From a virus, in the IMG/VR virus record IMGVR_UViG_3300044643_000612, positions 1-64,000 of that record: a stretch of DNA of 64,000 nucleotides. One strand, 5' to 3'. Of the stretch, positions 1 through 64,000 are shown piece by piece (the first letter of the stretch is position 1; every line of letters begins with the position of its first letter). The translations under genes were made by a program, and so were the position numbers. The notes below the pieces were generated by a model. That model was not told where the DNA came from. It saw only the letters and a program-made list of their open reading frames with translations, and did not search any database.

Positions 1-86
1 TGCAGCGGCGGCTGTCCATCTTGTGGATTGTGTTCTGGCTTGGCCCGCCTCTGTATTTCGTCTGGACCAAAGGAGTGCTGGGATGA
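1..86 (+). CDS. C-terminal part of small membrane protein (cut by window start)
   Basis: The reading frame is already open at base 3 and ends at the TGA at 84-86. It encodes the last 27 residues of a protein whose complete copy lies at 61065-61244. The visible part holds one hydrophobic segment (LSILWIVFWLGPPLYFVW), so it is membrane anchored. Its stop overlaps the start of the next gene in GGATGA. No function is recognised. Confidence 0.6.
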   Translation, partial: QRRLSILWIVFWLGPPLYFVWTKGVLG

Positions 87-127
87 CCTATCCGCCCGAA
101 CTGCAAGCCTACTACGACGCCCACGAC
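1..127. repeat. 127-base exact repeat, copy 1
   Basis: Bases 1-127 are identical to 61159-61285. The first mismatch is base 128 (g here, c at 61286). It covers the end of the membrane protein gene and the first 15 codons of the next gene. The repeat begins exactly at the window edge and its length equals a common assembler k-mer size, so it may mark circular closure or a graph join. Confidence 0.95.
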
Positions 128-1718: not shown

Positions 1719-1956
1719 CGAGGTGGTGGCGCGGCTCACCGGAGAGGCGGCTTACCTGAGCCTCACCCATGGCGTCCTCGTCATGGCCGATGGGCAGCGC
1801 ATCCCGCTCGTGCGCATGTACGACAAGGACGGAGACCCGACGGTCCACGCGACCGAGGCCGTCACCTTCCTGCTGAACGGCCCGGACTGCGGCGCCCCGA
1901 GCGGCTACGTCCTGCTGCCGTGCGACATGTTCGACCTGCTGGGAACCCTGCATTGA
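1708..1956 (+). CDS. Hypothetical protein (82 aa)
   Basis: The start chosen is the ATG at 1708 inside the end of the HTH gene (11-base overlap); an earlier in-frame start at 1672 would overlap more. The product (MTADEVVARLTGEAAYLSLTHG...) has no motif I recognise. It lies between the HTH gene and terminase and its stop overlaps the probable TTG start of terminase, so it is probably co-translated with it. Confidence 0.6.
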   Translation: MTADEVVARLTGEAAYLSLTHGVLVMADGQRIPLVRMYDKDGDPTVHATEAVTFLLNGPDCGAPSGYVLLPCDMFDLLGTLH

Positions 1957-4493
1957 CAGTCACCCGCGAGCAACTGATGGCCCTGTCCAAGGAGGACCTG
2001 CTGTTCATCGACTGGCAGGGCCGCTGGCGCGCAACGGCCAGGCCGGACCAGTTGCTCCCCGACACCGGGTGGTCGCAGATCGGCGTGCAGGCCGGGAGAG
2101 GATACGGCAAGCAGCTTTGCAAAGAGACGCCGATCCCGGCGCCCTCCGGCTGGCGGCGACTCGGCGACCTGGAGGTCGGCGACGAGGTCTTTGACGAGAC
2201 CGGCGCCCCGTGCCGCATCGTCGCCACCTACGAGCAGCCCGTCACTCGCGCTTACCGCCTGACTTTCAGCGACGGGGCGACGATCACGGCCTGCGAGGAC
2301 CACCTGTGGGTCACTTGGACCCACCGCGAGCGCAAGCAGTTCATCCGCCACCACCCCGAAGCCGACGATTTCCCTGAAAACTGGCCGGCGCACGTCCAGC
2401 CCCTGTGGGATTCCCGCGGCAGCGTCGTCGGCGCCGTCGGACCCGAGGTGCGCACCACCGCCGAGATCGTTGACACGCTGGTTTTCGGCACGCGCGGCGA
2501 CACGAACCACTGCATCCCGACCTGCCACCCCCTGCAATACCCCAAAAAGGCCCTGCCAATCGACCCTTGGGCGCTCGGCTACTGGCTTGGCAACGGTGCG
2601 ACCGTAGGCCCCGGCATCAGCACCCACCCCGACGACACGGACCTCGTCGTGGCGCGCTACGAGGCCCTTGGCTACAGCGTGACGCGCTACGCCAACGGCA
2701 GGGACGGCTACGTCAAGGGCCTTTTGGAGCCGCTCAGGGCCGTTGGCGTGGTCGGCGACAAGCATGTGCCCCGAGACTACCTGCAAGGCTCTGTGAAGCA
2801 GCGCGAAGCCCTCCTGGCGGGCCTGCTGGACAGTGACGGGCACTGCTCGCTGTCGGCGGGTCACATCGAGTTCTGCTCGACCCTGCGCTGCCTTGCCGAT
2901 GCGGTGGTTGAGTTGGCGCGTTCCCTCGGCCAGAAGCCCGTCCTGCTGGAAGACCGGGCGCGGCTCAACGGCAAGGACTGCGGCCCGCGCTACCGGGTCA
3001 AGTGGCGCAGCACCTACCAGCCGTTCTCGCTGCCCCGCAAGGCTGCGGCGTGGCGCACGCCCGGCGCTCAGGCCCTGCGCAACCGGCACCGCATGATCGT
3101 CGCCGCCGAGGAGGTGGCGCCGGTGCCCATGCGCTGCCTGACGGTCGACAGCCCGAACAGCATGTTCCTGTGCGGCGAGGCGATGATCCCGACGCACAAC
3201 ACCCGGGTCGGTGCCGAGTGGCTCGGGCAGAAAGCCTACCGGGACACCAACAAGTTTCCGTTCCGGGTCATCGCCCCGACGCTCAACGACGTGCGGTTCA
3301 CCTGCTTCGAGGGCCAATCCGGCCTGCTCAACGTCATCCCGCCCGAACTCGTCGCCGACTACAACAAGACCAACCTGCTGATCACCCTGATCAACGGCGC
3401 CACGATCCGCGGCTTCGGCACAGAGGAGCCCGAGCGACTGCGGGGGCCAAATAGCGCCGGCGACTGGGGCGACGAGGTCGCGGCGTGGATCCGCGATCAA
3501 GAGGCGTGGGACCAGGCCGCGTTTGGTCGGCGTCTCGGCGTCAACCCGCAGGTCGTCTGGACCTCGACGCCCAAGCCCAAGACCCTGATCCGCAACCTGA
3601 CCGAGCCCAAGCCCGGGCGCATCATCATCCGGGGTTCGACCTACGACAACCGCGAGAACCTCGCAGAGTCGTTCTACGACGAGTTGAAGAAGTACGAGGG
3701 CACCAAACTCGGGCGGCAGGAACTGGAAGGCGAACTGATCGACGCCGAGGAGGGCGGCATCATCGCCCGCTCCTGGTTCAAGTTGTGGCCGGCGAGCAAG
3801 CCCCTGCCCAAGTTCGAGTGGATCATCATGTCCCTTGACACGGCCTTCACCGAGCGCACCCTCGACAAGCGCACCCACGACCCGGACCCGTCGGCCTGCG
3901 CCGTGTTTGGCATTTTCTGGCACGAGGACGTGATGAACGTGCTGGTCCTTGACTGCTGGAGCGACCACCTCGGGATGCCCGACCTCATCACCCGGGTGAA
4001 GCGCGAATTGAACACCGCCTACGGCGACGACGAGGACACGGCGCTCATCAAGCCGATGTTCGGCCCCGCCAAGCCCATGACCAGCGGTCGCAAGCCCGAT
4101 CTGCTCATCATCGAGGACAAGGGCAGCGGCATCAGCCTGCGCCAGTCGCTGTCGAAGGAAGGCATACACGCCTACCCCTACAATCCCGGTCGCGCCGACA
4201 AGCTGGCCCGCCTGCATATGGTAAGCCACCTGTTCGCTCGCGGTTATTTTTGGTTGCCCGAAAGCGAGAAACGGCCCGGCAAGCCGCGTACTTGGACCGA
4301 GCCCGCGCTGGACCAACTTTGCTCCTTCCGGGGCGGGGGTTCCATCAAGCACGACGACTTCGTGGACGTTTTCAGTCAGGCTTCGCGTGTCATTATGGAC
4401 AAGGGCCTACTTTCCGGTGTAAAGCGTGAAAGCAAGTCCGTCCGCGAGGCCCCGGCACCGCCGAAACCCCGCGTGAACCCCTACGCCATCTGA
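1953..4493 (+). CDS. terL: Terminase large subunit (TerL) interrupted by an intein
   Basis: This is the packaging motor ATPase/nuclease that pumps DNA through the portal. Numbered from the TTG at 1953, the 846-residue precursor carries an intein at 54-416, leaving a 483-residue mature protein of normal TerL size. Joining the exteins restores the Walker A sequence GRGYGK+TRVGAEW. The C-extein shows Walker B (GDWGDEVAAW), the coupling motif TSTPKP, and RNase H-type nuclease acids in SLDTAF, IIEDKGSG and KHDDFVDVF. The start is uncertain: TTG 1953 overlaps the previous stop and fits homologues; GTG 1920 and ATG 1977 are alternatives. The gene is inactive until the intein splices. Confidence 0.93.
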   Translation: MTVTREQLMALSKEDLLFIDWQGRWRATARPDQLLPDTGWSQIGVQAGRGYGKQLCKETPIPAPSGWRRLGDLEVGDEVFDETGAPCRIVATYEQPVTRAYRLTFSDGATITACEDHLWVTWTHRERKQFIRHHPEADDFPENWPAHVQPLWDSRGSVVGAVGPEVRTTAEIVDTLVFGTRGDTNHCIPTCHPLQYPKKALPIDPWALGYWLGNGATVGPGISTHPDDTDLVVARYEALGYSVTRYANGRDGYVKGLLEPLRAVGVVGDKHVPRDYLQGSVKQREALLAGLLDSDGHCSLSAGHIEFCSTLRCLADAVVELARSLGQKPVLLEDRARLNGKDCGPRYRVKWRSTYQPFSLPRKAAAWRTPGAQALRNRHRMIVAAEEVAPVPMRCLTVDSPNSMFLCGEAMIPTHNTRVGAEWLGQKAYRDTNKFPFRVIAPTLNDVRFTCFEGQSGLLNVIPPELVADYNKTNLLITLINGATIRGFGTEEPERLRGPNSAGDWGDEVAAWIRDQEAWDQAAFGRRLGVNPQVVWTSTPKPKTLIRNLTEPKPGRIIIRGSTYDNRENLAESFYDELKKYEGTKLGRQELEGELIDAEEGGIIARSWFKLWPASKPLPKFEWIIMSLDTAFTERTLDKRTHDPDPSACAVFGIFWHEDVMNVLVLDCWSDHLGMPDLITRVKRELNTAYGDDEDTALIKPMFGPAKPMTSGRKPDLLIIEDKGSGISLRQSLSKEGIHAYPYNPGRADKLARLHMVSHLFARGYFWLPESEKRPGKPRTWTEPALDQLCSFRGGGSIKHDDFVDVFSQASRVIMDKGLLSGVKRESKSVREAPAPPKPRVNPYAI
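2112..3200 (+). other. Class-3-type intein with LAGLIDADG endonuclease inside TerL
   Basis: This 363-residue intein is inserted in the Walker A loop. The first residue is taken as Gln, not Cys/Ser, because only that boundary restores GKT. The class-3 signature is visible: Trp66 of DHLW (block B), Cys342 of RCLTV (block F), Thr361 before the terminal His-Asn, and Thr as +1 extein residue. In this class the block F Cys starts splicing instead of residue 1. Two LAGLIDADG-like motifs (ALGYWLGNG and LLAGLLDSDGHC) mark an in-frame homing endonuclease of the usual two-motif kind. Confidence 0.88.
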
Positions 4494-41349: not shown

Positions 41350-42408
41350 TCAGTCCTCCTTCTTATAGCGATATGTCTCGAACCCCGCTGCGGCAAGGGG
41401 CAGGCCGACCGACCACTGGGTGCCCTGCGACATGAGCGCGGCCAGGCCCTGCGCGCTGAACGACACGTCGTCCGCCGTCTCGCAGAGGATCTCGTCGTGG
41501 ACGTGCAGGACCGGGCTGTAGCCCGCCGCCTCCGCCGCGAGCAGGCCGGCGGCGAGGACGTCGCGAGCGACGGCCTGTGTCAGGTTCTCCACAAGTTTTC
41601 CACCGTATGTGTCCAGCCGCTCCCAGCGTCGGGTGTATTGGTTGGTGCCCATGTAGGACAGGCGCCCGTCCTCGTCGACTTGCGGTGACGGGTAGCAGAG
41701 GTAGCGGCCTGATGGCAGGCGGGCGCGCAGCCAGCCGCCGGAGCGCCGGAAGGCAATGCTGCTGGCCCGGTAGACCTCGCCCGGGTTGCTGATGGCGTTG
41801 CGGGCGGCGCGCTCGCAGTCATACCAGAACTTGACCGTCGCCTTGTGCTTCGCGCGCCAAGCCTTGACGATCTCAAGCACTTTGGGTTCGGGCAGGTTGA
41901 CGCCGTAGATCGCGCCCATAGCAGCGAACGCGCCTATACTGCCCTGAAAACCGCAAGCAAGCTCAGAAACTTTCCCGTTTACTTGCCGCTCGTCCTTGGT
42001 TACTTCACTCGGGTCCTTACCGAGGATGCCACCTGCTGTAATCTTGTAGATGTCGTGGCCTATACCTGCGTCGAAGTCTTTGAACGCCTCCAGCTTCCAC
42101 TGCTCGCCGGCAAGCCACGCTAGGACCCGCCCCTCGATGTTGGACAGGTCGGCCACGACCAGCTTGCACCCTGGCGCCGCGACGATAGACCCGCGCACCG
42201 CACTGGCGCACAACTCCATGACGTCGTCGTAGAACACCGTCTCGACGCCCGCCTTCATGGCCTCGATGCCGAGGTCGATCTGCGGCTGCTTCAGGGTCGG
42301 TCGCGGCAGATTTTGGGGCTGGAAAATGCGCCCTGAGTTGGAGACGATGCGCCCGTTCGCCATGAAACGGTTGCGCGGGCCGGCGTTCACGATGTCATAC
42401 GTCCGCAC
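41350..42408 (-). CDS. polA: Family A DNA polymerase, C-terminal fragment with C-intein
   Basis: GTG 42408, with GGAGG 7 bases upstream, starts a 352-residue protein. Residues 1-24 are the C-terminal part of an intein (TYDIVNAGPRNRF block F, terminal VSN), and Ser25 is the +1 residue. Then follow SGRIFQPQNLPRP, motif A (VVADLSNIEGR, Asp87), motif B (KVSELACGFQGSIGAF) and motif C (VHDE, Asp305). Alone it has no exonuclease and lacks the first part of the polymerase domain; trans-splicing with the 43279-44511 product would rebuild a 643-residue enzyme. Confidence 0.9.
   Translation of the reverse strand: MRTYDIVNAGPRNRFMANGRIVSNSGRIFQPQNLPRPTLKQPQIDLGIEAMKAGVETVFYDDVMELCASAVRGSIVAAPGCKLVVADLSNIEGRVLAWLAGEQWKLEAFKDFDAGIGHDIYKITAGGILGKDPSEVTKDERQVNGKVSELACGFQGSIGAFAAMGAIYGVNLPEPKVLEIVKAWRAKHKATVKFWYDCERAARNAISNPGEVYRASSIAFRRSGGWLRARLPSGRYLCYPSPQVDEDGRLSYMGTNQYTRRWERLDTYGGKLVENLTQAVARDVLAAGLLAAEAAGYSPVLHVHDEILCETADDVSFSAQGLAALMSQGTQWSVGLPLAAAGFETYRYKKED
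42337..42408 (-). other. C-intein half (24 residues)
   Basis: It contains only the block F and block G segments, shorter than typical C-inteins of about 35 residues. The last residues are Val-Ser-Asn before Ser; Ser replaces the usual His before Asn, as in some DnaE inteins. It begins with its own start codon and overlaps the endonuclease gene by 14 bases. Confidence 0.82.
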
Positions 42409-43312
42409 TGGCGAGCCTCCGCTTGGCCGCCGCAGCCGCACGGCGCTGCGCCCCAACTTCGGCGCGACGCTCCGGCGTCCAGTAGGCGATGAGCGCCTCC
42501 TTCTGGCGCCGCTTCCGCTTATCGTGGTCAATGCGCTCCCGCGCCGCGGCAAGTTGTGACTGTCGTTCGGCACGCTGCTCGTCGGGCAGTTGAGCGTTGA
42601 AAGCCACCAGGCTCTCCGAGATTTTGACGCTCACGCCCGCGACCTGTTCAGGGGTGCGTGCGTCCCACACCTTCTTTGCCCGCGCGCGGGCCGCACGCCT
42701 GGCTTTCAACTTTTCAGACGGCGTGCGCTCCGCAAAGTGTTTCAAAAGCCGTTCACTCTGCGCCTTGCGGTCCTCGTCGGTCCACGCCTTGGGGTTTACG
42801 TTTTTGCGTTCGGCTTTCAAAGCCAGCCGCAGGTTCCGACGCGCTATGCGGTACGCCTCGCGCGGGTTGGCCAACCGCCAGTCTCGGGCTAGCGCCGAGA
42901 GTTCGGCGGCGTGTGCCTGATGCGCTTCACTCTCGCGGCAGCCCCGGGAAAGCGCCGCGCGGTAGGCGGCTTCCCACGCCGGGTCGCGGCGAAGTTCTGC
43001 GGTGGCCGAAACCCCTGCGGGGCCGTCAAACGCCCCTCCAGGTGACAGGTTGTACGGGCTGACCAGCGCCGCGATCTCTTCGATCTCGGCGACAAAAGCC
43101 TCCTCAAGCGTGTCGCATGTCCGCAAGACCTCGATGGTGAACGCCTGCGCGCCGTACTTGCGGATAGCCGCACAGAATGGGTGGTGCGCGCCCTTGGCCG
43201 CGCGCCGCACATGCTGCCCCCAGCGAACCTGTAGCGGTTGAGACGTGAGACCGGCGTAGCTGCGCCCGCTAGGACTGGTCAGCCGGTAAATCGTGTAGCG
43301 TTCCCTCTCCAT
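42395..43312 (-). CDS. GIY-YIG homing endonuclease (free-standing)
   Basis: The 305-residue protein opens with a GIY-YIG domain: YTIYRLTSPSGRSYAGLT (TIY at 7-9, YAG at 19-21), Arg30, His34 and Glu76 in the catalytic positions. The C-terminal half has NUMOD3-like basic repeats (AWTDEDRKAQSERL, RTPSEKLKARRAARA, YWTPERRAEVGAQRR). It lies exactly between the two intein-bearing polymerase fragments and overlaps both (34 and 14 bases). It would cut the uninterrupted polymerase gene and spread the whole insertion. Confidence 0.88.
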   Translation of the reverse strand: MERERYTIYRLTSPSGRSYAGLTSQPLQVRWGQHVRRAAKGAHHPFCAAIRKYGAQAFTIEVLRTCDTLEEAFVAEIEEIAALVSPYNLSPGGAFDGPAGVSATAELRRDPAWEAAYRAALSRGCRESEAHQAHAAELSALARDWRLANPREAYRIARRNLRLALKAERKNVNPKAWTDEDRKAQSERLLKHFAERTPSEKLKARRAARARAKKVWDARTPEQVAGVSVKISESLVAFNAQLPDEQRAERQSQLAAARERIDHDKRKRRQKEALIAYWTPERRAEVGAQRRAAAAAKRRLASADV

Positions 43313-43566
43313 AGGGGTAGCCCTCTCTGCTTTGCCTCTCCGAGGGTAACATGTTCTGAAGTTGAAACATACACTTTATGTTCAACCGTCGCACAAACCC
43401 CGTCGTGCGTAATCACAGGCTTGTCGCCGGAAAACACCACGCCTTCGTGTCGAACCCACGACTCGCCGTCCCACACCAAGTCGTCGGTCGTGACGTCCTC
43501 TATGGGCCGCTCCAAGATGCGTCCAGTGTCGTCCTTGACCCGGACAAGTGTGCCTTCCGCCAAGCA
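43279..43566 (-). other. N-intein half (95 residues)
   Basis: It starts CLAEGTLVRVKDDTGRIL (block A, Cys1), continues IEDVTTDDLVWDGESWV and has block B THDGVCATVEHKVYV with the Thr-x-x-His pair, then ends LGEAKQRGLPLWRGNATRFTG. Length is close to natural split N-inteins (about 90-100). No endonuclease domain is fused. The same AEGT...VTT.D..WDGE.WV pattern recurs in the intein at 63392. Confidence 0.87.
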
Positions 43567-44511
43567 GAAACGCCCCGTGCGAGACGCCCCGGCGTACTGC
43601 ATGGTGCCCCGCAGCCGCCCGTCGGACGAGGTGCCGCGCACCAGCACCCGGTACTTGGCCGGGCTGGTCGCGGCTGCTTGCAGGCGCACCTCCAGCAACT
43701 CGCGCACATCGTCCGGCACGTCGGTCTTGAGCAGGGCGCCCAGCGTGCCCTTGCGCAGGTCTTCAATCTCAAGGCCCATCGCCTCGCGCAGGTAGCCGAT
43801 CAGGGCGTCCCGCTGCGTGGCGCTGGGCACGGCGCCGTCCGTCATGCGCGCCGACTCCACTGCTAGTCGCTGGCCCGCCTCCTTGGCGGCGCGCAGGGCG
43901 GCGTGGGCCAGGTCCATGTCGATCTGGATGCCGCGGTCGTTGATGGCTTGGTCCAGCCGCCACACGGCCTTCTCGGCGTCGGTCCAGTTGACCTTGGGCT
44001 GGCGAGCGTAGACCTCGCGCATGGCGACGATGTCCATGCGGGCATATTCCTTGAACGCCTCCCACTCCGCCGGATGCGTCTCTTTCGTGGCCCGGCGGAT
44101 CTTGCGCGTCTTGGCCTGCGGCTTGCAGAACAGTTGGATCAGCTTCTTGCCCGCCTTGTCCTTGGCCTTGTCCAGCGGGACGCCGAGGACCTCGCACTGT
44201 TTATCAAGGGCGCCCGGCAGGCTGTGCAGCAGGCCCACGGCGAGGGTGTCGTAGATGCGCTCAACGGGCACACGCACCTGACTGAACGACAGGACCGTGC
44301 GGTCGAAGTGGCTGTTGTGAATGATGATCCGGTCGGCAGCGTCGATGAGCGACTGCATCATGCCGGGGGCCGGGAACTCGACGACCTGGACCTCGTCGTC
44401 GTCCCATGCGTAGGCCAGCAGCAGGATCTCCGCGCTCTCCGCATAGGCCCATGTGCCATGCGTGATCGGCGTCTCGCTGTAGGTTTCGAGGTCGAGCATG
44501 AGTGTGCGCAT
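43279..44511 (-). CDS. polA: Family A DNA polymerase, N-terminal fragment with N-intein
   Basis: The 410-residue protein contains the DEDDy 3'-5' exonuclease: LDLETYSET (Asp7, Glu9), IIIHNSHFDRTV (Asp70), YARMD (Tyr156, Asp160). The polymerase part runs to ASRTGRF315, where the intein Cys316 begins. Homologues continue SGR...QPQNLPR, which is found at the start of the C-terminal fragment's extein. The gene has no strong ribosome site; a long hairpin precedes it. Confidence 0.9.
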   Translation of the reverse strand: MRTLMLDLETYSETPITHGTWAYAESAEILLLAYAWDDDEVQVVEFPAPGMMQSLIDAADRIIIHNSHFDRTVLSFSQVRVPVERIYDTLAVGLLHSLPGALDKQCEVLGVPLDKAKDKAGKKLIQLFCKPQAKTRKIRRATKETHPAEWEAFKEYARMDIVAMREVYARQPKVNWTDAEKAVWRLDQAINDRGIQIDMDLAHAALRAAKEAGQRLAVESARMTDGAVPSATQRDALIGYLREAMGLEIEDLRKGTLGALLKTDVPDDVRELLEVRLQAAATSPAKYRVLVRGTSSDGRLRGTMQYAGASRTGRFCLAEGTLVRVKDDTGRILERPIEDVTTDDLVWDGESWVRHEGVVFSGDKPVITHDGVCATVEHKVYVSTSEHVTLGEAKQRGLPLWRGNATRFTG

Positions 44512-51451: not shown

Positions 51452-51648
51452 TGCGTCCCTCGCATGTTGCGGTGGGCTTCCAGCGTCCGGCGGGCGAACG
51501 AGGCAAGCACGGTGTCAGGTAGGGCATCGGCCAGGGTGTAGAGGCTGGCAGACAGTCCGCGCCCGATGTCGCCGAACGTCTCGGCCTCCTCGATAGCGTG
51601 GATCAGGTCGGCCCGGGCAGGGATGCGCGGGGGTGGGTGGAGCATCAT
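51448..51648 (-). CDS. Hypothetical protein (66 aa)
   Basis: Two adjacent ATGs (51648, 51645) overlap the pentapeptide gene's stop. The product reads LIHAIEEAETFGDIGRGLSASLYTLADALPDTVLASFARRTLE, all helical. No family known to me. Confidence 0.55.
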   Translation of the reverse strand: MMLHPPPRIPARADLIHAIEEAETFGDIGRGLSASLYTLADALPDTVLASFARRTLEAHRNMRGTQ

Positions 51649-52346
51649 GCGCCCGCCCTCCGCTCGAAGAACTCCAGAATGTCCAGCGTCTCGCGGGCAT
51701 TAACTGTGCCGGGGTATTCGGCGGCGACGTGGGCGCGATATTCGGGGATCGTCAACCAACGACAACCGGCCATGATCTTGTGCGAGCCGTCCGTCAGTCG
51801 GAACAGGTGGAAGGTGTATCCGTCCATGCGCTCGGCGGCGGCGATAAGAGTGGCAAGAGTGTCCTCTTCGTATTTGGCATCGCGCAGGTTGGCATCGCGC
51901 AGGTTGGCACCGCGCAGGTTGGCACGGCTCAGGTAGGCACCGCGCAGGTCGGCACCGCTCAGGTCGGCACCGCGCAGGTCGGCACCGCTCAGGTTGGCAC
52001 CGCTCAGGTCGGCACCGCTCAGGTTGGCACCGCGCAGGTAGGCACCGCGCAGGTCGGCACCGCGCAGGTCGGCACCGCGCAGGTAGGCACCGCTCAGGTC
52101 GGCACCGCGCAGGTCGGCACCGCTCAGGTCGGCACCGCTCAGGTTGGCACCGCGCAGGTTGGCACCGCGCAGGTCGGCACCGCGCAGGTAGGCACCGCTC
52201 AGGTCGGCACCGCGCAGGTCGGCACCGCTCAGGTCGGCACCGCTCAGGTAGGCACCGCGCAGGTTGGCACGGCTCAGGTAGGCACCGCGCAGGGTTCCGC
52301 CGTTCGCCCATGCGACGGCGGCGAGGTAGGTTATGTGCTTGTTCAC
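51645..52346 (-). CDS. Pentapeptide repeat protein
   Basis: GTG 52346, after GGAGG and overlapping the previous stop, gives 233 residues. From about residue 17 to 150 the protein is an uninterrupted series of A(D/N/Y)L(S/R)(G/R) pentapeptides, which folds as a right-handed four-sided beta helix. The C-terminal ~80 residues (YEEDTLATLIAAAERMDGYTFHLF...EYRAHVAAEY...REFFERRAGA-like) are non-repeated. Some relatives (Qnr, MfpA) mimic DNA and bind gyrase; whether this one does is unknown. Confidence 0.85.
   Translation of the reverse strand: MNKHITYLAAVAWANGGTLRGAYLSRANLRGAYLSGADLSGADLRGADLSGAYLRGADLRGANLRGANLSGADLSGADLRGADLSGAYLRGADLRGADLRGAYLRGANLSGADLSGANLSGADLRGADLSGADLRGAYLSRANLRGANLRDANLRDAKYEEDTLATLIAAAERMDGYTFHLFRLTDGSHKIMAGCRWLTIPEYRAHVAAEYPGTVNARETLDILEFFERRAGA
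51883..52296. repeat. 15-base tandem repeat array inside the pentapeptide gene
   Basis: About 27 copies of a 15-base unit of the type GGCACCGC(G/T)CAGGT(C/T/A) vary at only two or three positions. Because 15 is a multiple of 3 and the unit lacks stops, other frames on both strands are also open; they are by-products. Confidence 0.92.
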
Positions 52347-52450
52347 AGCGCACCTCCGATAGCGGCTAGGGCAATCAGCAGCCATGCCAGCGCGGTGAAC
52401 GCGGCGGCGGTTAGGATGGCCTCTGCGGCGAGGCGGATGAGGCGGGTCAT
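52343..52450 (-). CDS. Small single-span membrane peptide (35 aa)
   Basis: ATG 52450 to the TGA overlapping the pentapeptide start. The sequence MTRLIRLAAEAILTAAAFTALAWLLIALAA... is one long hydrophobic helix with a basic N-terminus. Overlaps at both ends (ATGA, GTGA) support translation. Confidence 0.52.
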   Translation of the reverse strand: MTRLIRLAAEAILTAAAFTALAWLLIALAAIGGAL

Positions 52451-61068: not shown

Positions 61069-61244
61069 TGATTTCTCAAGAGACCTGCCTGCTGCTCATG
61101 CTCGTTATCGGCATGATATCTACTCTGGGTTTTCAATGGTGGCCTGACTGGACAAAAGTGCAGCGGCGGCTGTCCATCTTGTGGATTGTGTTCTGGCTTG
61201 GCCCGCCTCTGTATTTCGTCTGGACCAAAGGAGTGCTGGGATGA
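61065..61244 (+). CDS. Small two-span membrane protein (59 aa)
   Basis: ATG 61065 (a second ATG follows at 61068). Hydrophobic segments at about 8-24 (CLLLMLVIGMISTLGF) and 37-53 (LSILWIVFWLGPPLYFVW) flank a short WWPDWTKVQRR loop. The last part is identical to window bases 1-86. Function unknown. Confidence 0.6.
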   Translation: MMISQETCLLLMLVIGMISTLGFQWWPDWTKVQRRLSILWIVFWLGPPLYFVWTKGVLG

Positions 61245-61285
61245 CCTATCCGCCCGAACTGCAAGCCTACTACGACGCCCACGAC
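61159..61285. repeat. 127-base exact repeat, copy 2
   Basis: Identical to bases 1-127. Downstream the two contexts diverge completely: methyltransferase and terL after copy 1, a second replication module after copy 2. Confidence 0.95.
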
Positions 61286-61414
61286 CGAATGATGAATCAG
61301 GAGCGGACCGCAGATCAATTGGCGTGGTGGCCTGTCCAATACGGCTACTACAAGGTCGCCCGATACAACGCTGTCAAGGCTGGCTATCTGCCCGAGACGC
61401 CGGAGTTTGGCTAA
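61241..61414 (+). CDS. Small conserved hypothetical protein (57 aa), second copy
   Basis: Homologue of the gene at 83-256, same length. The first 15 codons are identical, then RMMNQERTADQLAWWPVQYGYYKVARYNAVKAGYLPETPEFG. ATG 61241 overlaps the upstream stop. Function unknown. Confidence 0.68.
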   Translation: MTYPPELQAYYDAHDRMMNQERTADQLAWWPVQYGYYKVARYNAVKAGYLPETPEFG

Positions 61415-61846: not shown

Positions 61847-62138
61847 GAAGAAGGTTAAGGCCCGGGTGGAGGCCATGCTCAAGGCGAAGGGGGTTTACTA
61901 TTTCTTCCCGGCTACGCATGGTTACGGGCGGAGCGGAGTCCCTGACATCATCGCCTGCGACCGGGGACGGTTCCTCGCCATAGAGTGCAAGGCTGCGGGG
62001 GGTAAGCTTACGGCGCTACAGGAGCGGGAGATTACCCGTATTAGAGTAGAAGGCGGCGTGGCACTCGTCATCCACGAAGACAACTTCCACGAGTTAGAGC
62101 AAGCGTTAGAGCAAGCGCTGGAGTATACATGCCTTTAA
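61830..62138 (+). CDS. VRR-NUC domain nuclease, second copy
   Basis: ATG 61830 after GGAGGA gives 102 residues: EKKVKARVEAMLKAKGVYYFFPATHGYGRSGVPDIIACDRGRFLAIECKAAGGKLTALQ. The PD...ExK core is present. It is clearly diverged from the copy at 41023 and lies, like it, beside GcrA-like and polymerase genes. Confidence 0.85.
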   Translation: MAATPEKKVKARVEAMLKAKGVYYFFPATHGYGRSGVPDIIACDRGRFLAIECKAAGGKLTALQEREITRIRVEGGVALVIHEDNFHELEQALEQALEYTCL

Positions 62139-64000
62139 TTGTCTGCGATTTCGAAACATATTACGACTCCGACTTCAGCCTGTCTAAGATGACGACGGAG
62201 GAATACATCCGAAGTCCTCGGTTTGAGGTGATCGGCGTAAGTGTAAAGGTGGATAGCGAGCCGCCCCGGTGGTTCTCCGGTACCATGCCTGACATTCAGA
62301 AGTGGCTCCTGCGCTTCCCGTGGGAAACCTCCATCGCCGTGGCGCACAACGCTGCCTTCGACATGGCCATCCTGAACTGGAGTTTTGGCATTATCCCGGC
62401 GAGGATCGCGGACACGCTCTCTATGGCTAGGGCGATAGACGGACCGGATGCAGGCAACAGCCTCGCCAAGCTGGCAGAGCGCCACGGTCTCGGGGCCAAG
62501 GGCAACGAGGTTATCAACGCGCTAGGCAAACGCCGACTGGATTTCTCCACGGCACAGCTGGCGGCTTACGGCGAGTACTGCTGCAACGACGCCGACCTGA
62601 CCTACGACCTGTTCCAGAAGCAAGTGGCGGGCTTCCCGCTAAGCGAGCTCCGGGTGATCGACCTAACCATACGCATGTTCACCGAGCCGGTACTGCGACT
62701 GAGCCAACCGGTGTTGGACGGCCACCTCACTGAGGTGCTGGACCGCAAGGCGAAACTTCTCGATGGGTTAGGCGTCTCCACCGAAGCCCTTATGAGCAAC
62801 GACAAGCTGGCTAAGGTCCTTGCAGACCTAGGTGTGGAGCCCCCGACTAAGACCAGCCCCACCACGGGCAAAGTGGCTTGGGCCTTCGCTAAGAACGACG
62901 AGGGGTTTAAGGCCCTACTGGAACATGAGGACGAGCGCGTCCAAGCCATTGTGGCTGCGCGGCTAGGGATCAAGTCCACGTTGGAGGAGACCCGGACCGA
63001 GCGGTTCATCGACATCTCCAAGCGCGGGACCCTGCCCGTACCCCTACGCTACTACGCAGCTCACACGGGGCGCTGGGGTGGCGACGACAAGATCAACCTC
63101 CAGAACCTGCCGCGCAAATCCCCACTCAAGAAATCCATGCGCGCGCCCAAGGGGTTCCTGTTGGTGGACTGCGACTCCAGCCAGATTGAAGCGCGGACCC
63201 TAGCTTGGCTGGCCGGACAAGACGACCTTGTCCAGTTCTTCGAGAAGAACAACGCCGAGATCGCGGCGGGCGTTGCCAAGGCGGACATGCAGTTCGACCC
63301 CTACAAGATCATGGCCTCCGGCATCTACGGGGTACCTGTGTCGGAGGTGACGGACGACATGCGCTTCGTAGGCAAGACAACTATACTGGGTTGTATTGCC
63401 GAGGGAACCCCGGTACTAACTGATCGCGGCTGGGTAGCGATTGAGGAGGTAACTACCTCTGACCGGCTGTGGGACGGAGAGGAGTGGGTATGCCACCAAG
63501 GGCTAGTGCAGAAAGGCACCAAAGAAACGTTGAGTCTTTGCGGGCTTTGGTTGACGCCGGATCACAAAGTGTTGTGCGGGACCCAGTGGCTGCAAGCGCA
63601 CTCAGTGGTTCAAGACAGAAATACCCTCTCCCAAGCGTTGGATACAGGAGCGGTCAGCTGGTTGTGTCCGGATACGTCAAAGGGCCAAGGAGAGGGGTAC
63701 TATCCATCATCGTGCGGTGCGACTGCGGGTTCCCAGAATACACCGTTGATAGGCACAACTTCAAGGACTTCAAAAGCACCCGATGCCCCCTCTGCGGTAG
63801 ACGGGAAGGACACCGAAAACGTTATTGGAAGTATATATCGGCGCTCCCCGACACTGCGCACCGAGAGCGACTGCTCAACCGACTATCGGCTGCTATCAGC
63901 CGCTGCCACGCACCCAATAACCGGATGTACGCAGACTACGGAGGTAGGGGTATCGCAGTATACAAACAGTGGAGAGCTGACCGCGCCGAGTTCCTACGGT
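62129..64000 (+). CDS. polA: Second family A DNA polymerase with an intein (runs off window)
   Basis: ATG 62129 opens a frame with no stop to the window end. The first 421 residues are polymerase: exonuclease VCDFETYYD, AHNAAFDMA, YCCNDADLTY; polymerase RYYAAHTGRWGGDDKINLQNLPR and motif A LLVDCDSSQIEART. It is then interrupted after RFVGKTTILG by an intein starting at Cys (63392), just before the expected GYGMG of motif B. The intein site differs from that in the 41350-44511 polymerase. Motifs B and C lie beyond the window. Confidence 0.87.
   Translation, partial: MPLIVCDFETYYDSDFSLSKMTTEEYIRSPRFEVIGVSVKVDSEPPRWFSGTMPDIQKWLLRFPWETSIAVAHNAAFDMAILNWSFGIIPARIADTLSMARAIDGPDAGNSLAKLAERHGLGAKGNEVINALGKRRLDFSTAQLAAYGEYCCNDADLTYDLFQKQVAGFPLSELRVIDLTIRMFTEPVLRLSQPVLDGHLTEVLDRKAKLLDGLGVSTEALMSNDKLAKVLADLGVEPPTKTSPTTGKVAWAFAKNDEGFKALLEHEDERVQAIVAARLGIKSTLEETRTERFIDISKRGTLPVPLRYYAAHTGRWGGDDKINLQNLPRKSPLKKSMRAPKGFLLVDCDSSQIEARTLAWLAGQDDLVQFFEKNNAEIAAGVAKADMQFDPYKIMASGIYGVPVSEVTDDMRFVGKTTILGCIAEGTPVLTDRGWVAIEEVTTSDRLWDGEEWVCHQGLVQKGTKETLSLCGLWLTPDHKVLCGTQWLQAHSVVQDRNTLSQALDTGAVSWLCPDTSKGQGEGYYPSSCGATAGSQNTPLIGTTSRTSKAPDAPSAVDGKDTENVIGSIYRRSPTLRTESDCSTDYRLLSAAATHPITGCTQTTEVGVSQYTNSGELTAPSSYG
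63392..64000 (+). other. Intein in the second polymerase (incomplete)
   Basis: Block A: CIAEGTPVLTDRGWVAIEEV, then TTSDRLWDGEEWV; block B: LCGLWLTPDHKVLCG with Thr-x-x-His. It is clearly related to the split N-intein at 43279. After about residue 90 the frame stays open for more than 110 codons but becomes Ser/Thr-rich and unlike a Hint or LAGLIDADG domain, exactly where an HNH-like protein is encoded in another frame. Confidence 0.8.
63490..64000 (+). CDS. HNH/zinc-ribbon-type homing endonuclease overlapping the intein out of frame
   Basis: ATG 63490 opens a frame, shifted relative to the polymerase, that is open for 170 codons to the window end. It encodes GQLVVSGYVKGPRRGVLSIIVRCDCGFPEY...STRCPLCG (CxCG and CxxCG zinc ribbon) and then RLLNRLSAAISRCHAPNNRMYADYGGRGIAVYKQW, the ...RC..P....Y..YGGRGI.V...W block of phage homing endonucleases. 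The C-terminal catalytic part is off the window. The true start could be a later GTG (63586 or 63664). Confidence 0.68.
   Translation, partial: MPPRASAERHQRNVESLRALVDAGSQSVVRDPVAASALSGSRQKYPLPSVGYRSGQLVVSGYVKGPRRGVLSIIVRCDCGFPEYTVDRHNFKDFKSTRCPLCGRREGHRKRYWKYISALPDTAHRERLLNRLSAAISRCHAPNNRMYADYGGRGIAVYKQWRADRAEFLR

Follow-up and report, generated by a model that had tools for sequence, protein, structure and literature searches.

How does a phage obtain a working DNA polymerase from a gene that is broken in two, with an endonuclease gene lying between the halves? This question is raised by a locus on the - strand of a 64,000-nucleotide viral sequence (positions 1 to 64,000 of IMG/VR record IMGVR_UViG_3300044643_000612, referred to here as the window), in which a 1,230-bp cassette (window 42337-43566) interrupts the gene for a family-A DNA polymerase (PolA) at RTGRF^SGRIF. 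An earlier note, made from the sequence of the window, read this locus as a fractured gene, with a split intein at the break and a free-standing endonuclease. Our data support this reading through related phages that are empty at exactly this site, the retention of the splicing nucleophiles, purifying selection, and the presence of the cassette in an unrelated phage. We consider it very probable that a class 1 split intein fractures the polymerase, that the protein would be rebuilt by trans-splicing, and that the cassette would be mobilised as a unit by a GIY-YIG nuclease. The anatomy of the locus, the exact empty site, selection, transfer between phages, and the co-conversion footprint were shown.

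Translation of the - strand agrees with the three genes that the earlier note described. The N-fragment (44511..43279, 410 residues) consists of a 315-residue N-extein ending in RTGRF (43567..44511), which comprises the 3'-5' exonuclease and the first part of the polymerase, followed from Cys316 by a 95-residue N-intein (CLAEGT...TRFTG) and a stop codon (43279..43566). The N-intein contains Cys1 and the block B motif TxxH and has relatives in two other phages, L004 and L027. The GIY-YIG homing endonuclease gene (42395..43312, 305 residues) has its own start and stop and is fused to neither polymerase half. The C-fragment (42408..41350, 352 residues) begins at a GTG codon with a 24-residue C-intein ending in VSN (42337..42408) and continues as a 328-residue C-extein that starts with SGRIF (41350..42336, stop codon included), contains polymerase motifs A (DLSNIEGR), B, and C (HVHDE), and matches Pfam DNA_pol_A (1.2e-11). 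The endonuclease gene shares 34 bp with the end of the N-fragment gene and 14 bp with the start of the C-fragment gene, and removal of the cassette leaves one 643-residue polymerase with residues neither lost nor added, both as the note had stated. Within PHROG family 17 (phage DNA polymerase), the N-fragment corresponds to profile positions 670-975 and the C-fragment to positions 976-1232; thus, the profile runs on across the junction. The break point falls within the conserved TGR motif of the polymerase. The endonuclease and C-fragment genes each have a Shine-Dalgarno (SD)-like purine stretch ahead of their start, which for the C-fragment is a GGAGG 7 nt upstream of the GTG, and the same start is ATG in L027. 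A longer C-fragment (GTG at 42573, adding 55 residues) was rejected because the additional bases encode the endonuclease while the short start has the SD-like site and the ATG counterpart.

When viral contigs were scanned with the C-fragment, 20 loci were recovered, including a second contig (L002) whose sequence matches that of the window at 100% over 11 kb. In three near relatives (L003, L005, and L006) the cassette is missing and the two exteins are joined at the exact junction codon, with nothing missing, which answers the note's call for a comparison with uninterrupted phage PolA. The N-exteins of these relatives are 93-95% identical to that of the window, and the neighbouring genes mostly share 90-97% DNA identity. 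Their junction reads RTAR[WF]^GGRLFQPQNL, compared to RTGRF^...^SGRIFQPQNL in the window. In a larger set of approximately 100 homologous loci with a readable junction (some contigs are counted twice) almost all are uninterrupted, and the +1 residue is Ala in 84 and otherwise Ser, Gly, or Thr. A search of genome contigs with the N-intein profile returned no relatives and thus no copy in a cellular genome or prophage.

The same split is found in a diverged phage, L004, whose exteins are 76-80%, N-intein 73%, endonuclease 52%, and C-intein 88% identical to those of the window. Its N-fragment and endonuclease genes again overlap by 34 bp, while the endonuclease/C-fragment overlap is 19 bp, the C-fragment lies in a different frame, and the insert is 1 bp longer (1,231 bp). 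Since the frame, overlap, and insert length all differ, no common read-through or frameshift makes the polymerase. These features are best explained by separate translation of the three overlapping genes, each probably from its own start and SD-like site.

Our data suggest that the cassette has moved between phages recently. A search with the endonuclease recovered L027, an unrelated phage with nearly the same cassette: the N-intein is 99%, the endonuclease 90%, and the C-intein 96% identical as protein (92-96% as DNA), while the surrounding polymerase exteins are only 52-66% identical. Beyond the ends of the cassette, DNA identity between the window and L027 drops, apart from two flanks that are identical in both phages: the preceding 15 nt (43567..43581, CGCACGGGGCGTTTC) and the following 41 nt (42296..42336, containing the Ser+1 codon). 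In these same flanks, 2-5 of the 15 upstream positions and 10-12 of the first 30 downstream positions separate the window from its near, empty relatives, although the window is approximately 92% identical to them farther out. This pattern is the footprint expected of recent homing, in which a cut would have been repaired from an occupied donor with co-conversion of short flanks, and such co-conversion accounts for the arrival of Ser+1, which splicing requires, in a lineage with Gly at this position. The earlier proposal that the endonuclease mobilises the whole insertion thereby gains strong, if indirect, support. The polymerase gene of L027 (4905-6818) also holds a second, contiguous intein at ELA^CGYQG beside its fractured GIY-YIG cassette.

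The intein and the endonuclease are under purifying selection. The ratio of nonsynonymous to synonymous substitutions (dN/dS) of the N-intein is 0.03 against L027 and 0.22 against L004, and that of the endonuclease is 0.23 (bootstrap 0.13-0.37). For the exteins, dN/dS against the empty relatives (0.12-0.28) falls within the range that the empty relatives show among themselves (0.11-0.29).

We propose that the N- and C-inteins would associate and splice in trans by means of Cys1, the terminal Asn of the C-intein, and Ser+1, which would restore the conserved TGR[FWL] motif and the 643-residue polymerase. The endonuclease may in turn cut cassette-free polymerase genes near the TGR[FWL] motif, after which repair would insert the entire 1.23-kb unit and a few dozen bases of flanking sequence, bringing the Ser+1 nucleophile with them.

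Inteins are assigned to class 1 by a nucleophile as first residue, a C-terminal Asn, a Cys, Ser, or Thr at +1, and an Asp in place of Cys at F:4 (PMC4031507). From Cys1, an Asp at position F:4 (instead of Cys), the terminal Asn, and Ser+1, the window split intein is assigned to class 1; it also has T-x-x-H, and the Asp lies in a block F that reads YDI. Cys1, TxxH, the terminal Asn, and Ser+1 are retained in all full copies. No Pfam or NCBIfam model matched the window intein, and the joined intein sequence had no match in PDB. The endonuclease exceeds the cut-off of the Pfam GIY-YIG model (24.1 bits, cut-off 22.6), the best match of its predicted structure is the catalytic domain of I-TevI (moderate confidence, from a three-sequence alignment), and the putative catalytic residues Y9, R30, H34, E76, and N88 are invariant across three homologues. 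The other two same-strand frames of the endonuclease region are closed by 8-11 stops, and scans with the endonuclease alone returned the same loci only. Target cleavage by this protein would be consistent with the transfer footprint in L027, which is indirect evidence for it.

Several features weigh against a spliced and mobile locus. The block F His is replaced by Asn and the penultimate His by Ser in all three full copies, and the splicing domain is small (95 + 24 = 119 residues) compared to 131-134 residues in HNH-type split inteins with an endonuclease and 140 residues in a Ruminococcus phage mini-intein. In addition, the YIG motif of the endonuclease is YAG in the window copy (YVG in relatives), and the window and L004 differ much more in the endonuclease than in the intein. 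The block F and penultimate histidines usually assist Asn cyclisation and are common in class 1 inteins, but they do not define the class. Splicing without the penultimate His has been published, according to a reference listed in PMC4031507. The atypical assisting His residues and the small domain are the main reasons that we do not rate splicing more highly. The length of the C-intein, which the earlier note called unusual, is short next to the natural DnaE C-inteins (35-36 residues), of which an engineered 15-residue version splices well (PMC2664965), but it is usual among HNH-type fractured PolA genes (approximately 24-27 residues).

The two polymerase fragments might alternatively work as a non-covalent two-subunit enzyme without splicing, with the intein halves serving as a dimerisation tag or persisting as remnants. 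Aeromonas phage Aeh1 provides a precedent with its split NrdA (PMC3653736), and the absence of the two assisting His residues is in keeping with this idea. We consider it improbable, however, since Cys1, TxxH, the terminal Asn, and Ser+1 are all retained, Ser+1 came with the cassette in place of Gly, the N-intein has the low dN/dS given above, and the break lies within the conserved TGR motif. Decay of a polymerase gene broken by a selfish insertion, in a phage that relies on another polymerase, would find an argument in a second PolA gene within the source record. This record (84,337 bp) is a composite, and the sequence after approximately 61,410 (the window's last 2.6 kb) comes from a different phage: window 1-127 repeats at 61,159-61,285, which gives a circular phage of 61,158 bp; an independent, identical contig of 61,309 bp is circular as well and agrees with the window no farther than 61,410; and the G+C content falls from approximately 0.65 to 0.58 near 61,410. 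The second PolA sits in the foreign end and was therefore rejected as a functional backup, while in the 61-kb circular phage no PolA other than the split one was found. Given also that extein dN/dS matches that of the empty relatives and that the arrangement persists in the diverged L004, we find decay very improbable.

Removal of the insert at the RNA level, as a group I intron with a GIY-YIG reading frame, or its passage by frameshifting or bypassing, is extremely unlikely. Group I introns commonly harbour GIY-YIG genes and the length of the window insert is divisible by 3, but an Rfam search of the locus matched no intron family up to the permissive threshold of E = 10, both ends of the insert carry conserved intein motifs, and the L004 insert differs in length and frame relation. 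An assembly or sequencing error might be suspected in a record that is composite past 61.4 kb. The composite join leaves the polymerase locus untouched, the same locus is present in L002 at 100% identity, and the architecture recurs in the diverged L004 and L027, so the split is not a chance event or an assembly slip; error is practically refuted, with next to no probability left to it. Trans-splicing of a fractured polymerase thus remains our preferred explanation. The claim of the note that replication of the phage would depend on trans-splicing is an inference, strengthened by the split PolA being the only PolA found in the circular genome.

We found that fractured polymerases extend well beyond the window. 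A scan of viral contigs with an N-intein profile, in which a split N-intein followed by a C-intein was tallied and some records duplicate one phage, returned 49 loci with duplicates included (IMG/VR contigs L117, L119-L173, L177, and L180, and others). All are polymerase genes, mostly split at TGRW[SG]G^S, two residues downstream of the window site, with L177 split at a GGK site. An HNH-type gene lies between the halves in 45 of the 49 as scored, and L125 and L132 have a similar open reading frame (ORF) that failed the motif filter. L117 is a further GIY-YIG case, truncated where its contig ends. In a tree of approximately 120 residues whose deep nodes are weak, the GIY-YIG cassettes group as a clade of their own (support 0.98) separate from the HNH cassettes, and this separation suggests that fracture probably happened more than once. 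At the TGR^ point of the window, L146 and L150 contain a contiguous intein with a closely similar C-part (PTWDIVDCGPHNRFMANGRIVHN^SG). L157 (4001-4407) contains a split PolA intein with 14 bp between its halves and no endonuclease gene, apparently an end state after endonuclease loss.

Contiguous inteins that bear an endonuclease may indicate how such splits arise. In all 21 examined, an HNH-like gene (179-267 residues) lies inside the intein in another frame, offset by +1 in 17 and by +2 in 4; the offset is +1 in all scored fractured HNH cases. The HNH identity was profiled or annotated for 12 of the 21 (ten profiled, plus L146, plus APSE-1 P46 by its GenBank record). Contiguous phage inteins with an out-of-frame HNH gene were observed in L146, L150, L118, L164-L184, L022, L023, L027, L029, L030, and L032, and the host genes are PolA (most), TerL-like, and helicase-like. 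A published insert in a phage methylase gene also hides an out-of-frame HNH, but it has no intein (PMC11855218). It is quite possible, though we hold it at slightly below an even chance, that the phage PolA genes form a series for the birth of split inteins, from empty to contiguous with an out-of-frame endonuclease, to fractured (with HNH and, separately, with GIY-YIG), to split without an endonuclease as in L157. In such a series, fracture would follow once the host frame over the endonuclease no longer stays open, and split inteins would arise by capture of an out-of-frame endonuclease, not by loss of a fused endonuclease domain.

Dassa et al. (2009, NAR 37:2560) reportedly described as 'fractured genes' enzyme genes whose two halves carry a split intein at the break and are separated by a free-standing endonuclease gene. 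Such genes are a published kind, cited in PMC10448857, PMC11766414, and PMC3653736, and papers citing the 2009 study mention nrdA and nrdJ. The window locus shares with them the order of N-half plus N-intein, endonuclease gene, and C-intein plus C-half within a phage DNA-metabolism gene, and differs in its host gene (PolA, at TGRF^S) and its GIY-YIG endonuclease. Pseudomonas phage MIJ3 likewise has a DNA polymerase divided over two ORFs that carry a split intein and are separated by an endonuclease ORF, but there the polymerase is family B and the endonuclease HNH (PMC6892783), whereas the window locus is family A and GIY-YIG and comes with evidence of transfer. The PolA inteins of APSE, GB2A, SE2/Jerseyvirus, Javan255, and a Ruminococcus phage share the polymerase family and have related Hint domains but are contiguous, lie at ELA^C or GGK^C, and have an HNH gene nested out of frame or none. 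I-TevI of phage T4 resembles the window endonuclease in catalytic domain fold and homing role; however, it sits in a group I intron, and the window gene, flanked by the halves of a split intein, differs in its C-terminal part. For co-conversion of Ser+1 there is a published parallel in the haloarchaeal MCM-d intein, whose empty sites have no +1 nucleophile and whose invasion needs co-conversion of the adjacent codon to Ser (PMC10643990), although that intein is contiguous and in an archaeal helicase. No PolA/GIY-YIG fractured gene was found in the literature searched, which did not take in the 2009 fractured-gene study. The arrangement is of a known, rare type, and the window locus is a well-preserved new example with unusually good evidence of homing.

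The polymerase lies in a replication module with genes for DUF2800, a single-stranded DNA-binding protein, PolA, VRR-NUC, and a helicase, which is also present in BPP-1, APSE, and GB2A. Other elements were observed as well. The second family-A polymerase in the foreign part of the record (+ strand; window 62129-64000, record 62129-64837) contains a contiguous intein before CGYG, and its intein region includes an out-of-frame ORF like the nested HNH-type ones (63469-64233). In the phage with the split PolA, the large terminase gene (window 1920-4493, + strand) contains a second, contiguous LAGLIDADG-type intein of 363 residues (approximately 2112-3200) in the Walker A motif, with the junctions GRGYGK^QLCKE...PTHN^TRVGAEW and, as in class 3 inteins, Gln first, Trp in block B, Cys in block F, and Thr in block G. 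A pentapeptide-repeat protein (window 51645-52385, - strand) is encoded by a highly repetitive stretch of 15-bp units. In Moraxella phage Mcat20 (L031), a 'hypothetical protein' near the terminase gene (3001-3345) contains N- and C-intein-like motifs.

If the function proposed here is true, the only family-A DNA polymerase of this phage would need obligatory protein trans-splicing, with a selfish element fixed at that position. Since empty, occupied, and recently invaded relatives are all available, split-intein homing, +1 co-conversion, and the origin of split inteins become directly testable. Furthermore, the C-part of this natural 95 + 24 residue split intein is short enough for peptide synthesis, and the lineage holds dozens more candidates.

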